Assembly: GCF_029338295.1 (NCBI RefSeq)
Contig: NZ_CP119792.1
Span: 62,001-126,000, forward strand
Direction: 5' to 3'
Length of the DNA: 64,000 nucleotides
Source: Haladaptatus sp. QDMS2
Lineage (GTDB): Archaea > Halobacteriota > Halobacteria > Halobacteriales > Halococcaceae
Notes under the pieces: generated by a model
What the model was told of the DNA's origin: nothing
The model's database searches: none
The model's input: the letters and a program-made list of their open reading frames with translations, nothing else
Shown here: piece after piece, positions 3,356 to 53,405 of the stretch
How positions within the stretch are numbered: the first letter of the stretch is position 1
Layout: each line of letters opens with the position of its first letter
Program-made: the position numbers and the translations under genes

Positions 3356-4284
3356 GTGCCCCCCGTTGCCGACGACATTAAACAAGAAATGATGGAGCAA
3401 GCCGAAGCCCATTATCGCGGCCTCTCTTTCTCCTACGACGAATTCGAATCAGTCCTCAACGTCACCAGCGACCTCACCGAAATCCACAGTTACGACACCA
3501 GCTACTTCGTTCTTGGCAGTTACACCGAAGACGCTCGTATGCGCCTCGAACAAGTAAGAGACCAACTGGACGCCCGCAGTGGGGCACGCGCCATACTCAT
3601 GAGCGATATCGCGAACGAATGGGAACATAGCTACCCGAAATTCCGATTAATCGCCGACTACACCACCTATCTCGTCGGTGTCGCTGAACACCGCTGTGGG
3701 GGATTCCTCGTCGAAATGGGATACTTCGCTGCCGTCGATCAATATTTTGAGAAAACCTACGTCCTCAAACTCGCCTACCGTTCCTATTTTCGGTAGCAAA
3801 CGGTACAACAGTGTACCGAGGGTGGCTGGGCCTCACCGGGTTACTACTCTCTATTTTCGTGCTTCTCGCGGGACGCACCTGGCGACCTTGGGGATGTCCT
3901 TCAATTTTCGTTCCCGGCACCAGCAACGTGCAGGACGCGTCATCAAAGCACGCACACCAGCGGAACGGCTGGCTAGTGTGTGTTTGGCCGTCACACGAAT
4001 CTCCTGAACGTCCGTATAGGCCGTGTTTGAAACTCATGTGACGCTTACAGGTTCGGCGTGAATCGTATTAATAATTCGGGGCAGAATTTGTACCGTTCAC
4101 ATCTATTTACTCCTGATTTTGGTAACAGTTCCGTAACCCCAACGAAAGCGTCCGCGAAACCGACCACGAATGGCCGTATAGCTGGATGCAAGAAGGCATC
4201 TTCGAACTTCTCGCCGCAGACCAACGCCTCTTCACTTGGAACACCGTTGAAAATCTCGAAATCTGCACTACAAAACTCCCTTGA
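3356..4284 (+). pseudogene. Interrupted hypothetical gene (Rossmann-like, nucleoside/TIR-like fold suspected)
   Basis: The first part (3356-3796, GTG start) encodes ~142 residues of a compact alpha/beta protein: Y-F-V-L-G-S-Y-T-E-D-A-R, then a segment with S-D-I-x-x-E-W-E-H, then G-G-F-L-V-E-M-G-Y ending V-L-K-L-A-Y. It then runs into unrelated sequence and a stop. The missing C-terminus reappears at 4132-4284, in a frame reading R-N-P-N-E-S-V-R-E-T-D-H-E-W followed by a helical F-E-L-L-A-A-D-Q-R-L-F-T-W stretch. Joining the two halves gives a plausible ~190-aa protein. The intervening ~350 bp therefore looks like an insertion. The biochemical role is unknown. The 'GSY' loop plus acidic residues recalls nucleotide-sensing Rossmann folds, but I cannot assign it. 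Confidence 0.65.
3782..4130. mobile_element. ~350-bp non-coding insertion splitting the preceding gene
   Basis: The segment separates two halves of one reading frame. Both junctions carry CCGT (3778-3781 and 4131-4134), compatible with a 4-bp target duplication. Similar direct copies of TCCT-ATTTT-GGTA-CA lie at the left end (from 3782) and right end (from 4111). Within it a perfect 10-bp inverted pair, AACGGTACAA at 3799-3808 and TTGTACCGTT at 4088-4097, could be the termini of a ~299-bp MITE. No transposase is encoded, and the small ORFs inside look random. The true boundaries are uncertain to about 20 bp. Confidence 0.5.
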
Positions 4285-46953: not shown

Positions 46954-47030
46954 ACAGTCAATTCGCGTTCACTCAATAGGACTCTATCGCCGAAATCGAT
47001 AGGAGAGCCGCGAGAACTCAGTCACAGAGC

Positions 47031-47047
47031 TATCGGAAGTATCGGAA
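47031..47047 (+). promoter_or_regulatory. Tandem TATCGGAA sites upstream of orc1
   Basis: TATCGGAA occurs at 47031-47038 and again at 47040-47047 (9-bp period), 45-61 bp before the orc1 start. A related palindrome, CTATCG-N7-CGATAG, is at 46984-47002. A third intergenic copy (48101-48108) precedes the RecA-like gene, and two copies lie inside orc1 (47690, 47703). I found no copy elsewhere in the window by eye. Candidate binding sites for the encoded Orc1/Cdc6 protein. Confidence 0.55.
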
Positions 47048-47091
47048 CCCACCCCATTCCGCTTATCACACTCCCGGTAGACTGGTCTGTC

Positions 47092-48093
47092 ATGATACGG
47101 GATGCGAGAGTGTTGCAGGACGATTTCTTGCCCCAGGAGGTCCAGCACCGCGAGGCAGAAGTCACCCAGCTTTCCACCACGCTCGCAGCCCTCACGCGCG
47201 GTGAAGCCCCCGAAACGGCCTTCCTCTCCGGCCCCAGTGGCGTCGGCAAGACCTGCATCGCGAAGTTCACCGTCGACCGCCTGCGCGAGGAACTCATCGA
47301 CGTGAACCACCAGTACATCAACTGCTGGGAGGACTACAACCGCTATCGCACGCTCTATCGCATTCTCGAAGGCATCGGCCAGACGCTGGACGTGCATCGC
47401 CAATCGACGCCCCTAGACGAACTGCTCGAACGGGTGCGGTCGTACGACGGCCCGCCCTACGTCGTCATCCTCGACGAGGTAGACCAACTCGAAGACACCT
47501 CCGTGCTCTACGACCTGTACAACACCCCGCGGATTCACATGGTCCTCATCGCGAACGAGGAGGACGACCTGTTCGCAGAACTCGAAGAACGGGTGCGCAG
47601 TCGCCTGCTGAGCAGCGTTCGCGTCCGGTTCGAACGCTACCACCTGGAGGAACTCGTCACCATCCTCGAAGACAGAGCGCGGTGGGGATTATCGGAAGGC
47701 GCTATCGGAAAGCAGCAATTGGCCCTCATCGGGGACGCCGCAGCGGGCGATGCGCGGGTCGCAATCGGCATTCTTCGGAACGCCGCGCGACGCGCCCAGC
47801 AGGCGAACGCAGACACTATCTCGTTCGAGATGGTCCACGAATCGATTCCTCGAGGGAAGGCGGAAGTCAGGCGCAAAGCCGTCGATAAACTCCACCCCCA
47901 CCAGCACGCCCTCTACGAGATTCTGCGCGAAGCGGGCGAACTCTCGCCGGGTGAGTTGTACGAACGCTACACGGAGAACGTGGAGAATCCAAAGACCAAG
48001 CGCACGGTCAGAAATTATCTGACGAAGATGGACCATTACGGTCTCGTCATCGCCGAGGGGACGAACCGTGGCCGGACCTATCGCCCACAATGA
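47092..48093 (+). CDS. Orc1/Cdc6-family initiator or regulator
   Basis: The protein is 333 aa, shorter than typical initiators (~400). Walker A is G-P-S-G-V-G-K-T near residue 46, Walker B V-V-I-L-D-E-V-D-Q-L near 124, sensor I L-I-A-N-E-E-D-D near 149, and the arginine-rich sensor-II region D-A-R-V-A-I-G-I-L-R-N-A near 225. A C-terminal winged helix ends the protein (S-P-G-E-L-Y-E-R-Y...K-R-T-V-R-N-Y-L-T-K-M). Paralogues in haloarchaea can start replication or act as regulators. It leads the locus with a RecA-like protein and PolB2, and TATCGGAA sites flank it. Confidence 0.9.
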   Translation: MIRDARVLQDDFLPQEVQHREAEVTQLSTTLAALTRGEAPETAFLSGPSGVGKTCIAKFTVDRLREELIDVNHQYINCWEDYNRYRTLYRILEGIGQTLDVHRQSTPLDELLERVRSYDGPPYVVILDEVDQLEDTSVLYDLYNTPRIHMVLIANEEDDLFAELEERVRSRLLSSVRVRFERYHLEELVTILEDRARWGLSEGAIGKQQLALIGDAAAGDARVAIGILRNAARRAQQANADTISFEMVHESIPRGKAEVRRKAVDKLHPHQHALYEILREAGELSPGELYERYTENVENPKTKRTVRNYLTKMDHYGLVIAEGTNRGRTYRPQ

Positions 48094-48100
48094 ATTAGCA

Positions 48101-48108
48101 TATCGGAA
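48101..48108 (+). promoter_or_regulatory. TATCGGAA site between orc1 and the RecA-like gene
   Basis: A single copy of the octamer lies 8 bp after the orc1 stop and 54 bp before the next ATG, with a similar ACCGGAAG 4 bp further on. It is the same octamer as the tandem pair upstream of orc1, suggesting joint control of both transcription units. Confidence 0.5.
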
Positions 48109-48161
48109 CGACCGGAAGCCACACGCTTTGGGTTATCTCACTGTCTCGCGAATTTTCTGAT

Positions 48162-48836
48162 ATGAAGCCGACGACCGGTGACCCGCCCGCACTGCCGACG
48201 CTCGGGCCAGGAGTCACCAGACTCGAAGCAGACGAAAGAATCACTGGCGCACTACAGTCGCTCGTCTTAGACCACGTCCTCATGAGCAAGGGCGACGCCC
48301 TGTGGGTCGACAGTCGCGCCAACGGAACCACCCAGCCACTCGCCCGGCTCGCCCCGAGTCGTCGGGCGCTCGACCGGATTCACATCGCCCGCGGGTTCAC
48401 GCCGTGGCAACACTACAGCCTGCTTCAGGACCTGCCCGCGGCCGTCACCGAGTCCACGTCGCTCGTCGTCCTGCCTGCTATCGACTGGTTCTACCGGAGT
48501 GACGAGGTTCGGGCGTCGATGGGCAAACGCATGTTCGAGCGCGCGGTCGAGCAGGTCGAAGCCATCGCCACAGACTTTGACGTGCCCGTGCTCGTGACGA
48601 CCCACGAGCAGGATGCGTTCACCGACCCGCTCGTTTCCGTCAGTGCGCCGCTCGAATGCACGCTCACGAAGTTCGGGCCGCGCTTTTCCGGCCAGGAGTT
48701 CGAGACGCTCGTCTACCCCGTCGAATACGGCCTGCTCCAGACGACGCTCGCCTACTGGTGTCAGGTGCTCTCTGCGCGTCACCCGGCGATTACCACGCCG
48801 TCCTCGCGGGAGGTGGCCGCGGGTGGGGCGCACTAA
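48162..48836 (+). CDS. RecA-superfamily protein without Walker A
   Basis: The protein is 224 aa. Segment order follows Rad55/RadB-like RecA folds: G-V-T-R-L-E-A-D near residue 18, L-W-V-D-S-R-A-N near 47, H-I-A-R-G-F-T-P-W-Q-H-Y near 73, then L-V-V-L-P-A-I-D-W-F-Y-R near 100 (Walker B position), ending in a V-L-V-T-T-H-E strand. No G-x4-G-K-S/T is present anywhere, so ATP hydrolysis is unlikely. Bacterial ImuA shows the same loss and works with an error-prone polymerase. Its 3' end overlaps the small gene next to it by 14 bp. Confidence 0.7.
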   Translation: MKPTTGDPPALPTLGPGVTRLEADERITGALQSLVLDHVLMSKGDALWVDSRANGTTQPLARLAPSRRALDRIHIARGFTPWQHYSLLQDLPAAVTESTSLVVLPAIDWFYRSDEVRASMGKRMFERAVEQVEAIATDFDVPVLVTTHEQDAFTDPLVSVSAPLECTLTKFGPRFSGQEFETLVYPVEYGLLQTTLAYWCQVLSARHPAITTPSSREVAAGGAH

Positions 48837-49089: not shown

Positions 49090-51186
49090 ATGCCCTTCAC
49101 GTTCGACTACCGCGACGGCGACGTGCTCGCGTGGTCGCTCACCGACGAGGGCGCGACTTACACGCGCGATGAATCCTATACGCCCACCATCTACGTGTCG
49201 GCGCACGGTGCGGGCCATCTCGCTGACGCTGCGGACGTGCTTCGCGGTCATCCCGCTGTGTCGCACGTTCGCGAGGTGAGCGAGCGCGTCAGTTTTCGCC
49301 ACGACACAGAACCCGTCCTCGAAGTCGGCGTCACCGAACTCGACGCGGTGACCATGCTCGCCCACACCATCGCCGGGTGGGGGTCGCCGGGGACGTACCG
49401 CCCCTACAACGTGGACCTCTCGCGGGAGTATCGCTACTGCCTCGAAAACGACATCATGCCCCTGCCCGAGCGCGAGTTGCGCGTCCTGTCACTTTCCACG
49501 CCCGAGTCGAACCTCAGTCGGGGGCGCATCACGACGCTCAAACTCGACGACGAGACGGTCGAGGGCACGCCCGCGGAGGTTCTCGACGTGCTCTCCGTAC
49601 GCCTCGACGCACAGGACCCGGACGTGTTCTTGCTCTCGACGAGCGAACTCGTTCCCGCCCTCTACGAGCAGGCGCGACAGGTCGGCAACGACGAGTTCTA
49701 CCTCGGACGACTGCCCGGCTGGGAGCGTCTCGCCGGGAAATCGACGTACACGAGCTACGGCCGGGTGGGCCATTCGCCTGCTCGCTACAACCTTCCAGGA
49801 CGAGTCATCATCGACCGCAGCAACACGTTCATGTGGAATCAGACGAACCTCGACGGCTGTCTGGACCTCGTGAAGCGTTCGGGGAAACCACTTCAGGAAC
49901 TCGCGTGGGCGTCGATTGGCAACATCCTGACGGCCATCGAAATCAAGGAAGCCCGCAGACGCGGGGTGCTCGTCCCGTGGCACTCGTGGCGTCACGAGCA
50001 ATTCAAGACGATGAACCAGCTTCACGAGGCAGACCGCGGCGGGTTCACCTTCGCGCCGAAGGTGGGCCTCCACGAGGACGTCCACGAACTCGACTTCTCC
50101 TCGCTGTATCCGAACATCATCGTGACGCGGAACGTGAGTCCCGAGAAGATTCGGTGTGACTGCCACGCCGGCCGCGAGGACGTGCCCGGTCTTGGTTACG
50201 CTATCTGCGACGAGCGCGGGTATCTCCCGAACGTGCTCGAACCGCTCATCGCAGACCGGGATGCGTACAAGCGCGAACTCGCAGAGACGGATGACCCAGC
50301 GCGGCGAGCCGTCCTCGAAGGCCGGTCGAACGCGCTCAAGTGGATTCTCGTCTCCTCCTTTGGCTACCAGGGGTTTTCGAACGCGAAGTTCGGGCGCATC
50401 GAGTGCCACGAAGCAATCAACGCCTTCGCACGCCAGATTCTCCTCGACGCGAAGGATGTGTTCGAGGCGAACGGCTGGCGCGTCGTCCACGGCATCGTGG
50501 ATAGTCTCTGGGTGACGGCCGTCGAGGACGAGGAGCAGACGCCGCTCGACGAGTTGGCGAAGGAGATTACCGACGCGGTGGGCATTCGACTGGAGTACGA
50601 GACGGCCTACGACTGGATTGCCTTCGTTCCCCTGCGGTCGAGCAACGCCGGGGCGCTCACCAAGTACTTCGGGAAGAAAGCGAGTGGCGAATACAAATAC
50701 CGGGGCATCGAGGTTCGCCAGCGCAGCACGCCTCCGTTCGTCAAAGAAGCGCAGAAAGACCTCATCGAGACGCTCGACACCCACCGGACGCCCGAGGCGG
50801 TGTGCGACCGTCTGCAGGTGTGGCTTGGAAAACTCCGATCAGGGAAGGTAGACACCGCCGAACTGGTCGTCACGAATCGCGTCTCGAAGTCTCTGGAAGA
50901 GTATTCGCAATCGACGCGGAACGTGGCCGCACTCGAACGGGCGGCGAAACTTGGACGGTCCCGTGGCCCGGGGCAGAAGGTGCAGTACGTCGTAGTCGAC
51001 GACGCCGCGGACGACATCGACCGAGTTGCACTTGCAAGCGAGCACCCGAGTGAGTACGACGTCGAGTTCTACTGTGACCTTTTGCTCCGAGCGGCCGAGA
51101 GCGTGGTGTCACCACTCGGGTGGCGTCGGTCGCGGATATCGTCGTATCTGGCAGAGCGCGTGGATGCGTCGTTGAGTGCGTATTGA
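49090..51186 (+). CDS. polB2: Family B DNA polymerase, PolB2 type
   Basis: The protein is 698 aa. Motif A is E-L-D-F-S-S-L-Y-P-N-I near residue 335 with the Asp kept. Motif B is L-K-W-I-L-V-S-S-F-G-Y near 415, with a Lys and a Tyr kept. Motif C, normally Y-G-D-T-D-S, is H-G-I-V-D-S near 470: the first catalytic Asp is replaced by Ile. The 3'-5' exonuclease motifs are not recognisable. This pattern fits archaeal PolB2, for which degenerate catalytic centres and damage-linked roles have been reported in other archaea. It ends an operon with the RecA-like and coiled-coil genes. Confidence 0.85.
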   Translation: MPFTFDYRDGDVLAWSLTDEGATYTRDESYTPTIYVSAHGAGHLADAADVLRGHPAVSHVREVSERVSFRHDTEPVLEVGVTELDAVTMLAHTIAGWGSPGTYRPYNVDLSREYRYCLENDIMPLPERELRVLSLSTPESNLSRGRITTLKLDDETVEGTPAEVLDVLSVRLDAQDPDVFLLSTSELVPALYEQARQVGNDEFYLGRLPGWERLAGKSTYTSYGRVGHSPARYNLPGRVIIDRSNTFMWNQTNLDGCLDLVKRSGKPLQELAWASIGNILTAIEIKEARRRGVLVPWHSWRHEQFKTMNQLHEADRGGFTFAPKVGLHEDVHELDFSSLYPNIIVTRNVSPEKIRCDCHAGREDVPGLGYAICDERGYLPNVLEPLIADRDAYKRELAETDDPARRAVLEGRSNALKWILVSSFGYQGFSNAKFGRIECHEAINAFARQILLDAKDVFEANGWRVVHGIVDSLWVTAVEDEEQTPLDELAKEITDAVGIRLEYETAYDWIAFVPLRSSNAGALTKYFGKKASGEYKYRGIEVRQRSTPPFVKEAQKDLIETLDTHRTPEAVCDRLQVWLGKLRSGKVDTAELVVTNRVSKSLEEYSQSTRNVAALERAAKLGRSRGPGQKVQYVVVDDAADDIDRVALASEHPSEYDVEFYCDLLLRAAESVVSPLGWRRSRISSYLAERVDASLSAY

Positions 51187-51281: not shown

Positions 51282-51812
51282 ATGGTCGAGACAGACGCGA
51301 ATGGACCACCTCCCTTCGAAGATGCGTTCGCCGGCGACGACGTCGAACAACGCATCTACGGCACCATCCTCCAGACCCGAGAACCGACGACAGCGAGTGC
51401 AATTGCCGACACCGCCGACTGTGACCCGAAGACTGCCCGGAAGTATCTGAACTGGTTCGACAATCTGGGAATCGTCACCCGACACGACGGCCATCCAGCC
51501 ACCTACGAACGGAATGACGCGTACTTCGAGTGGCGGCGCATCAACCAGCTCGCAGCCGACCACGCTGTCGAGGACCTCCAGACCCGCGTTCGCGAGCTGA
51601 CGACGCGCATCACTGAGTACGAAGACACGTACGATGCCGTCTCACCGGCCGCCGTGGATGCCGTCGCCGTCGCAGAAGTCAGCGATGACCAAACCATCGA
51701 CGACGTGTACAGCGACCTCGCTGACTGGGCGACCACCCGTGAGGAACGAGAACGCTACGAACGCGCCCGCCAGCAACGCATGGGCAGCGAACGCGAGCAG
51801 GCATCCGGGTAG
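51282..51812 (+). CDS. DUF7342-type wHTH/coiled-coil regulator, copy D
   Basis: The protein is 176 aa from M-V-E-T-D-A-N-G; the ORF start at 51120 overlaps polB and is rejected. Winged helix: I-L-Q-T-R-E-P-T-T-A-S-A-I-A-D-T-A with K-T-A-R-K-Y-L-N-W-F-D-N-L-G-I-V. The long helix (L-Q-T-R-V-R-E-L-T-T-R-I-T-E-Y-E-D) and S-P-A-A-V-D segment follow, but the L-R marker of other copies is absent. The final helix is R-E-E-R-E-R-Y-E-R-A-R. It lies 95 bp after polB2 and 8 bp before its partner gene. This is the most diverged of the four copies. Confidence 0.75.
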   Translation: MVETDANGPPPFEDAFAGDDVEQRIYGTILQTREPTTASAIADTADCDPKTARKYLNWFDNLGIVTRHDGHPATYERNDAYFEWRRINQLAADHAVEDLQTRVRELTTRITEYEDTYDAVSPAAVDAVAVAEVSDDQTIDDVYSDLADWATTREERERYERARQQRMGSEREQASG

Positions 51813-51820
51813 TCCGCTCG

Positions 51821-52264
51821 ATGGTGCCACCGACAGGCGATGGCGGGAGCCCTGCCCCCATCGACCGACCACTCCTCGAGTTTCTTCAAACGCGGCTCGC
51901 AGCAACGAGACAAGTCTCCCGAGCGACTGTCACGGACGCAAGCGGCCACCTCGAACTTCGCGTCCGGTTCGCGTCGCCGTACTATCCAGCGACCCTCGAC
52001 GAGGCGACGCTGACGGTTCGCTGGTACACGAACGACGACTTCAAACTCCACTATCGAGAGACGCACGCGGACCACGCATGGGAGTGCCGGTGGGACCGTC
52101 ACTCGAATCCCCATAATACACGAGCCCACTTCCACCCCCCACCCACCGCCTCGACACCTGGCCAGGACGCGTCGTGGCCGGACGATCATCGTGACGTCGT
52201 TGCACTTGTCCTCGACGAGATCGAAGACCGAATCGCGGCTCTGTGGGACGAGTACCGAGGATAG
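51821..52264 (+). CDS. Small partner protein of the DUF7342-type regulator, copy D (TumE-like toxin candidate)
   Basis: The protein is 147 aa. Core: A-T-L-T-V-R-W-Y-T-N-D-D near residue 66, F-K-L-H-Y-R-E-T-H-A-D-H near 78, C-R-W-D-R-H-S-N-P-H-N near 94, then H-F-H-P-P near 108 and a C-terminal helix D-V-V-A-L-V-L-D-E-I-E. The W-D-R-H-x-N-P-H...H-F-H arrangement is close to the W-D-N-x-P-H-H core of TumE toxins. It starts 8 bp after its regulator's stop. The match to the copy A partner (W-Y...F-R-V-N-Y...H-F-Q-Y) supports one family. Confidence 0.7.
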   Translation: MVPPTGDGGSPAPIDRPLLEFLQTRLAATRQVSRATVTDASGHLELRVRFASPYYPATLDEATLTVRWYTNDDFKLHYRETHADHAWECRWDRHSNPHNTRAHFHPPPTASTPGQDASWPDDHRDVVALVLDEIEDRIAALWDEYRG

Positions 52265-52433
52265 CTCGACGACGAACCGGGTCAGCCGTAAACCTTCGTC
52301 AGGCAAGGGGGTGAATCGACGGGGGATTCCCACCCGCTGGGAATCCGCCATTCGCTCTTTGTCCGTCCCCGAGTGGGTGTTGCTAGAGACCGTCACACGA
52401 GTCGGTCGGCGTCCCGAGCGTGCACCCACGACC

Positions 52434-53405
52434 ATGACACGAACGAAACTCTCCCGGAGGGAAGCCCCGTCGAGCGAACGAACCGCGACGACAGATGCGC
52501 GAGCGAAAACTCAGTGCCCAGAGTGCAACGGGCGAATCGTCCAAGACGGCGGCCGCGGCGAATCGACGTGCGAGGATTGTGGCCTAGTGGTCGACGAAGA
52601 CGACCTCGACCACGGCCCCGAGTGGCGGGCGTACACCGCCGGCGAACGAGACGACAAGAGCCGCGTCGGCGCACCGACGACGCAACTCATCCACGATAAG
52701 GGCCTCAGTTCGACGATTAGCTGGCAGGACAAAGACGCCTACGGCAAGCCCGTCTCGGAACGCAAACGCAGTCGGCTGAAGCGCCTTCGCACGTGGGACG
52801 AACGCTACCGGACGAAAGATTCTCACGAGCGGAATCTCAGGCAGGCACTCGGCGAAATCAGCCGCATGGCCTCTGCTCTCGGACTCGGCGAACCGATTCG
52901 CGAGACGGCGGGGGTCATCTACCGACGCGCCCTCTCTGAAAATCTGCTTCCGGGTCGGTCCATCGAAGGGATGGCGACAGCATCGCTGTACGCTGCCGCG
53001 CGCCAGCAGGGCGTCCCGCGCCCGCTCTCCGAGTTCACCGAGGTTAGCCGGGTAGACGAGACGCGCATTCAGCGGGCGTATCGCTACCTCTCGCGGGAAC
53101 TCGCCCTCGAAATCGAACCGGAGAATCCGGCGCAGTACCTCCCGCAGTTCGCCTCCGCCCTCGAGGTTGACGACGAGGTAGAACGACAGGCTCGCGAGCT
53201 GCTGTCCGTCTCGAAGGGAACGGGGGCGCACGTCGGCAAGAGTCCGGTTGGACTGGCCGCCGCGGCACTCTACGCTGCGACCCAACTCACGAACAGGAAG
53301 GTGACACAGGAGCGCGTCGGCGACGTGGCCCGCGTCAGCGTCGTCACCATCCGCAATCGCTATCAGGACCTGCTCACCGAATACGAGACCCAGCGAGATG
53401 TGTGA
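52434..53405 (+). CDS. tfb: Transcription initiation factor TFB
   Basis: The protein is 323 aa from M-T-R-T-K-L-S-R-R; the ORF to 52191 overlaps the partner gene and has low-complexity content. The zinc ribbon is C-P-E-C-N near residue 28 and C-E-D-C-G-L-V-V near 48. D-H-G-P-E-W-R-A-Y begins the B-finger/reader region. Two cyclin-like repeats follow (L-P-G-R-S-I-E-G-M-A-T-A-S-L-Y-A-A-A-R near 178, G-K-S-P-V-G-L-A-A-A-A-L-Y-A-A near 270). Haloarchaea carry many TFB paralogues with specialised promoters. It overlaps the wHTH gene after it by 8 bp. Confidence 0.95.
   Translation: MTRTKLSRREAPSSERTATTDARAKTQCPECNGRIVQDGGRGESTCEDCGLVVDEDDLDHGPEWRAYTAGERDDKSRVGAPTTQLIHDKGLSSTISWQDKDAYGKPVSERKRSRLKRLRTWDERYRTKDSHERNLRQALGEISRMASALGLGEPIRETAGVIYRRALSENLLPGRSIEGMATASLYAAARQQGVPRPLSEFTEVSRVDETRIQRAYRYLSRELALEIEPENPAQYLPQFASALEVDDEVERQARELLSVSKGTGAHVGKSPVGLAAAALYAATQLTNRKVTQERVGDVARVSVVTIRNRYQDLLTEYETQRDV

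Follow-up and report, generated by a model that had tools for sequence, protein, structure and literature searches.

Paired boxes at an orc gene and a PolB2 operon of Haladaptatus: a predicted operator for an Orc1/Cdc6-family protein

An octamer, TATCGGAA, occurs five times in the same orientation within 1.1 kb in and around an orc gene of Haladaptatus sp. QDMS2, raising the question of what element these copies belong to and which protein reads it. The window, by which we mean the whole stretch of 64 kb analysed here, is part of contig C2 of its genome. It contains exactly five copies, all on the + strand (47031, 47040, 47690, 47703 and 48101), so that an earlier note on this DNA was right both about the five copies and about the lack of any other exact copy in the window. 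Their density is far above chance: when the window was shuffled 100 times with dinucleotides preserved, a single shuffle reached five copies, and at the genome rate 0.016 copies are expected per 1.1 kb, which gives P(>=5) of about 9e-12 for a stretch that was picked post hoc. Across the 3.88 Mb of the genome there are 58 copies, versus 22 for the reversed control, and the bare octamer is therefore not rare.

The cassette and its composite promoter elements

The octamers are half-sites of composite elements and not isolated octamers. The features of the cassette are as follows.

47031..47038, + strand: distal box TATCGGAA of the putative orc operator, conserved in 31 orthologous orc promoters
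47040..47047, + strand: proximal box TATCGGAA, in 9-bp register and followed by conserved C positions
47057..47061, - strand: reversed half-box TTCCG directly 5' of the TATA-like element
47062..47067, + strand: TATA-like element CTTATC of orc, with conserved spacing
47092..48093, + strand: orc, Orc1/Cdc6-family AAA+ protein of 333 aa (Walker A/B, Cdc6 lid, C-terminal winged helix with wing NRGR)
47690..47710, + strand: in-gene pair TATCGGAA-N5-TATCGGAA in 13-bp register, showing a synonymous-codon excess (qualified below)
48101..48117, + strand: putative operator of the iRadA operon, TATCGGAA-CG-ACCGGAA, the second-best match genome-wide
48133..48136, + strand: TATA-like TTAT of the iRadA operon
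48162..48836, + strand: iRadA, RadA-like; it matches Rad51/RadB weakly, and no Walker A motif could be seen (synteny as in PMC11791011)
48823..49083, + strand: PPB2 (arCOG07300-like), a small protein with a GTG start and then an N-terminal GRT as in the MGRT motif
49090..51186, + strand: PolB2, family-B DNA polymerase (NF004418, 1040 bits; motif C HGIVDS)

The Orc protein has the features of the Orc1/Cdc6 family, namely an AAA+ domain with Walker A/B motifs, a Cdc6 lid and a C-terminal winged helix. It matches profile TIGR02928 with 184 bits (cut-off 181), its Cdc6_C match falls under the cut-off of that profile, and its nearest PDB sequences are crenarchaeal Orc1 chains (2qby, 2v1u), the wing motif NRGR included. 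Judged from gene order, the GRT N-terminus of PPB2 (the MGRT motif is described in PMC11791011), the degenerate RadA and a polymerase of the PolB2 subfamily in which the first Asp of DxD in motif C is replaced, the three genes after orc are the known iRadA–PPB2–PolB2 translesion (error-prone) polymerase operon. Plasmids of Haladaptatus sp. YSMS36 and DYSN1 encode Orc and PolB2 proteins that are 99.7-100% identical to those of the window.

The orc promoter reads TATCGGAA-G-TATCGGAA-CCCACCCCA-TTCCG-CTTATC, and the ATG follows after about 25 nt, a TATA-ATG distance that suggests a leaderless transcript. Its putative operator consists of two direct boxes in 9-bp register (TATCGGAA-N-TATCGGAA), then CCC, then the reversed half-box abutting the TATA-like element. 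The iRadA promoter reads TATCGGAA-CG-ACCGGAA-GCCACACGCTTTGGG-TTATC and also contains a 9-bp tandem pair (TATCGGAACGACCGGAA), with a degenerate second box. The layout described earlier, a tandem pair before orc and a tandem-like pair inside it, stands, apart from the supposedly lone copy before the RecA-like gene, which is one half of a pair. At both promoters a TATA-like TTAT lies 14-15 nt downstream of the box pair, and the distances to the TATA-like element and to the start codon are nearly equal. An imperfect inverted repeat, CTATCGccgaaatCGATAG, was also seen at 46984-47003, about 30 bp upstream of the orc operator.

When the composite motif is searched in the genome, the orc site is the best match (0 mismatches) and the iRadA site the next (2), while the third-best has 3 mismatches and no TTAT; matches with up to two mismatches occur only at these two promoters. 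The earlier note had counted a genome-wide abundance of the octamer against its reading: the bare octamer, with its 58 copies, is indeed common, but the composite is confined to two promoters.

Conservation of the element in haloarchaea

Among the relatives' loci used for comparison (80 in number), the box pair lies 57-64 nt before the ATG in 31 orc promoters, that of the window included. Across these promoters most positions of the boxes and of the TATA element hold 1-2 bits of information, and upstream positions about 0-0.2. The iRadA promoters of close relatives also carry the box pair.

We then used a search pattern that is blind to the proteins, TCGGAANNNTCGGAAN{13,15}YTTAT, on 391 haloarchaeal genomes. 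It gave 49 listed sites in 43 of the 391 genomes, and its reversed control gave none. By reading of the loci, 46 of the 49 sites were assigned to the promoter of orc (35, a count that takes in three decayed genes, at L161, L164 and L185, and one site that was not read, a second identical one in G057) or of iRadA (11), and in the loci examined the gene about 60 nt downstream of the composite is nearly always one of these two. The decayed orc genes at L161, L164 and L185 retain an intact operator. The three remaining sites lie at neither gene: one runs into a TFB gene (L147), one has no gene (L156) and one has no recognisable orc (L179). At L147 the composite, at about position 1500, falls inside the 5' part of the TFB reading frame, as though recombination had placed an orc promoter there. 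An orc gene lies just upstream in seven of eight checked iRadA loci with the composite, L182 and L183 showing only its end, and the eighth, L172, has no orc within 6 kb. On Halobacterium pNRC200, orc1 has the operator but sits beside ParA, and polB2 is found elsewhere, beside orc4.

Less specific patterns, the bare 8-mer and loose pairs, were uninformative across the class. Most of the WTCGGAA-N2-WTCGGAA loci that were read lacked the promoter arrangement, a problem solved by adding the spacing to TATA.

Since conservation is continuous from the boxes to the TATA element and the reversed half-box abuts the latter, the whole might be a promoter-core element, in effect an extended BRE that one specific TFB recognises, perhaps that encoded within the window at 52434-53405. 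We consider this very unlikely, as the boxes reach about 30 bp upstream of TATA, past a BRE, the element is used by only two promoters in its own genome, and most relatives lack linkage to the TFB gene (of the 80 loci, L008 alone matched). Downstream of PolB2 and co-oriented with it are this TFB gene and a DUF7342/TrmB-like winged-helix gene (51282-53405), and the operator was looked for before both genes and not seen.

The pair inside orc is in a different register, and its copies could merely be a by-product of the coding sequence for LSEGAIG, a reading that is quite possible, though not the one we favour, and that is compatible with an Orc operator at the promoters. The peptide is shared among orthologues, and in a wider set of 15 orthologues, differing peptides included, the synonymous-codon excess at the pair is not significant. 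Against this reading, in nine orthologues chosen for having the same peptide, none of the other windows, 327 in all, exceeds codons 201-207 in surplus synonymous identity (z 3.57), so that the signal depends on restricting the orthologues by peptide, although not by codon. In the same nine orthologues the codon of Leu199 is TTA, CTA, CTT or TTG and never the dominant CTC, which also argues against a coding by-product. From this codon usage, the in-gene pair is probably an auxiliary site.

The predicted binder of the operator

We propose, with a probability of about 0.68 and from sequence comparison, that the octamers make up the halves of an operator read by the neighboring Orc, which would control both orc and the PolB2 operon, probably in response to DNA damage. 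In this scheme a protein of the Orc1/Cdc6 family would now be, or would double as, a dedicated transcription regulator. It would occupy the tandem boxes that immediately precede BRE/TATA, both in front of its own gene and in front of iRadA–PPB2–PolB2, and, probably alongside the transcription machinery, would activate the operon of the damage-tolerance polymerase, and the in-gene pair could serve as an auxiliary site, perhaps for feedback. We infer the identity of the binder, the activating sign and DNA damage as the signal.

Several observations point to Orc as the binder, short of proof. A comparison of orc promoters indicates that the promoter of the window orc carries the conserved element of this Orc family, and the operator types (the WTCGGAA pair, TTTCCGGAA and the TTCTGGAA pair) cluster on the Orc tree and not by host: 13 changes are needed, versus 41.5 in shuffled data, and a value as low was obtained in 0 of 200 shuffles, a contrast inflated by near-copies. 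A common tree is expected even without direct contact when Orc and operator lie on one piece of DNA. However, strains with two Orc proteins of this kind have a different operator type at each orc (L029/L066, L032/L059, L023/L056 and L030/L050), which speaks for a factor linked to the individual orc and so weakens this objection without removing it. Finally, CGGAAAC is common to the proximal box and to haloarchaeal ORB-like repeats (PMC3528665; present in this genome at the orc at 424 kb of C2).

It is unlikely that the boxes are instead bound by an unlinked regulator that co-controls orc and the PolB2 operon. By pattern, the operator is present at six of the 32 iRadA operons that have no orc in the roughly 6 kb before them, as such a regulator would allow, though in these cases an orc may sit elsewhere; a global regulator, in turn, is hard to reconcile with an element found at only two promoters of its own genome, and the operator type tracks the Orc tree and differs between the two Orcs of one strain.

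Orc genes often flank origins, and this, together with the CGGAAAC shared with ORB-like repeats, could be taken to indicate a small replication origin beside orc. An origin at the window orc is nevertheless unlikely, indeed extremely so. Multiple ORBs with a G-string were not found within 2.5 kb of this orc, and the cumulative GC skew of C2, which is weak and of limited power, has no turning point there (its minimum is at 241 kb). Moreover, the matching element at iRadA is locked to a TATA box, the ORB-like repeats are found instead at the orc at 424 kb, and haloarchaeal orc regions without ORBs have served as no-origin controls (PMC3528665). With elements locked to TATA boxes and start codons, no ORB and no skew turn, the origin reading is unsupported, and we rejected it on the skew and the ORB search. 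While the haloarchaeal ORB has the same CGGAAAC core as the proximal box, the element described here has no G-string, no AT-rich unwinding stretch was seen with it, and it is tied to TATA. The earlier suggestion of Orc1 sites acting as an autoregulatory element or a small origin can accordingly be kept in its regulatory part, given the conservation at the orc and PolB2 promoters and variants that track the Orc tree, and given up for the origin.

Other orc regions differ in this respect. Upstream of another orc gene (G000:C2:423330-424160) we observed ACAGCGGAAAC repeats, one of them followed by GGTGGGG, which are a candidate origin of the C2 replicon. In a second Orc clade (L034, L046, L051 and L081) an extra TTTCCGGAAGTTTCCGGAAG and a similar stretch of 90 bp lie about 150 bp upstream of orc, and by its sequence this upstream region is more origin-like than that of the clade of the window. 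There are three other orc matches on C2. The two ends of this contig, G000:C2:1-29046 and the final 29 kb, match each other at 99.9% identity, probably because a circular overlap was left untrimmed, and the orc matches at 3891 and 573059 are thus likely one gene.

DNA damage and comparison with known systems

The UV box, TTTCACTTTCA, is found upstream of TATA in promoters of Halobacterium induced by UV-B (PMC2556686). Like the operator described here, it is a short repeated box upstream of TATA, but its sequence differs and at PolB2 operons it is found where an adjacent orc is lacking. The survey for TTYCACTTTCA, with one mismatch allowed, covered 56 PolB2 operons in which the iRadA promoter could be read. 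Of the 32 whose upstream 6 kb or so contains no orc, 14 have the box, and of the 24 with an orc there none has it (Fisher p 9.5e-5). This association is strong, but the statistic ignores kinship of the operons, many of the UV-box cases being from one genus. The 14 promoters are those of L252-L254, L256, L259-L262, L264, L265, L267, L268, L270 and L277, of which L264 (G070) belongs to the genus of the window organism itself. None of the 56 iRadA promoters contains both the UV box and the CGGAA operator, and the background of either pattern in shuffled sequence is below 0.2%. The operator pattern was not recognised at iRadA in 13 of the 24 operons with a divergent or nearby orc, and its association with the presence of orc is weak (p 0.04 for the 56 operons, kinship ignored). 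A distant orc can have the UV box in its own promoter, as an exact copy in L247 and L249 and with one mismatch in L251 and L263. The box was looked for in the window and not seen; the own genome has eight copies of TTYCACTTTCA, all on C1, one of them before radA.

We suggest, tentatively, that in haloarchaea the PolB2 operon may be tied to damage in two interchangeable ways, either by the UV box of the host or by a self-contained cassette whose Orc protein would work locally, much as LexA does, through paired operators at the promoters and a further one concealed within the gene by the choice of synonymous codons. The text of papers on the Halobacterium UV transcriptome mentions neither orc nor polB2, which counts against the reading as a damage switch.

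Orc-family damage regulation in Sulfolobus and the orc–PolB2 neighborhood are both known. The PolB2–iRadA–PPB2 neighborhood with orc (arORC2) has been reported and tied to the damage response (PMC4104785, PMC11791011), and its genes and their order, with an orc1/cdc6 neighbor, are the same as in the window. A term search of these two papers found no orc-operon cis element, in-gene copy or UV-box exchange, and the open-access literature searched, subscription papers being outside its scope, held no report of the operator.

A precedent is Orc1-2 of Sulfolobus, which binds the promoter of its own gene and drives genes of the damage response (PMC9738581). Like the Orc of the window, Orc1-2 of Sulfolobus/Saccharolobus is an Orc1/Cdc6-family protein with AAA+ and winged-helix domains. 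It has its element in its own promoter (PMC9738581), the counterpart at the window orc being a conserved, putative operator, and PolB2 (Dpo2) is damage-inducible in organisms of this group that have Orc1-2 (PMC9738581, PMC7390963, PMC11791011). The elements themselves differ: the box in the window is longer than the Sulfolobus DDRE (ANTTTC) and of another design (tandem WTCGGAA, CCC and TTCCG), and reading of both strands found no ANTTTC in it, nor is there a fixed ANTTTC in the conserved consensus. The scale also differs, since Orc1-2 has a global regulon while the element described here has two predicted target promoters in its genome and a cassette linked in cis.

Outside Sulfolobus, how DNA-damage genes are controlled in archaea is still mostly an open question. 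With an operator that is defined, and with its binder and two target promoters predicted, the long-noted orc–PolB2 neighborhood becomes directly testable in haloarchaea. These findings suggest that the use of Orc proteins in damage regulation has not been confined to a single archaeal phylum. They also warn that an orc gene with repeated boxes need not equal an origin. In bacteria, lexA is found beside the PolB2 operon (SOS), so that a regulator is encoded next to the polymerase operon just as in the window (PMC4104785, PMC11791011), the difference being that the regulator there is LexA and here a member of the AAA+ Orc family.
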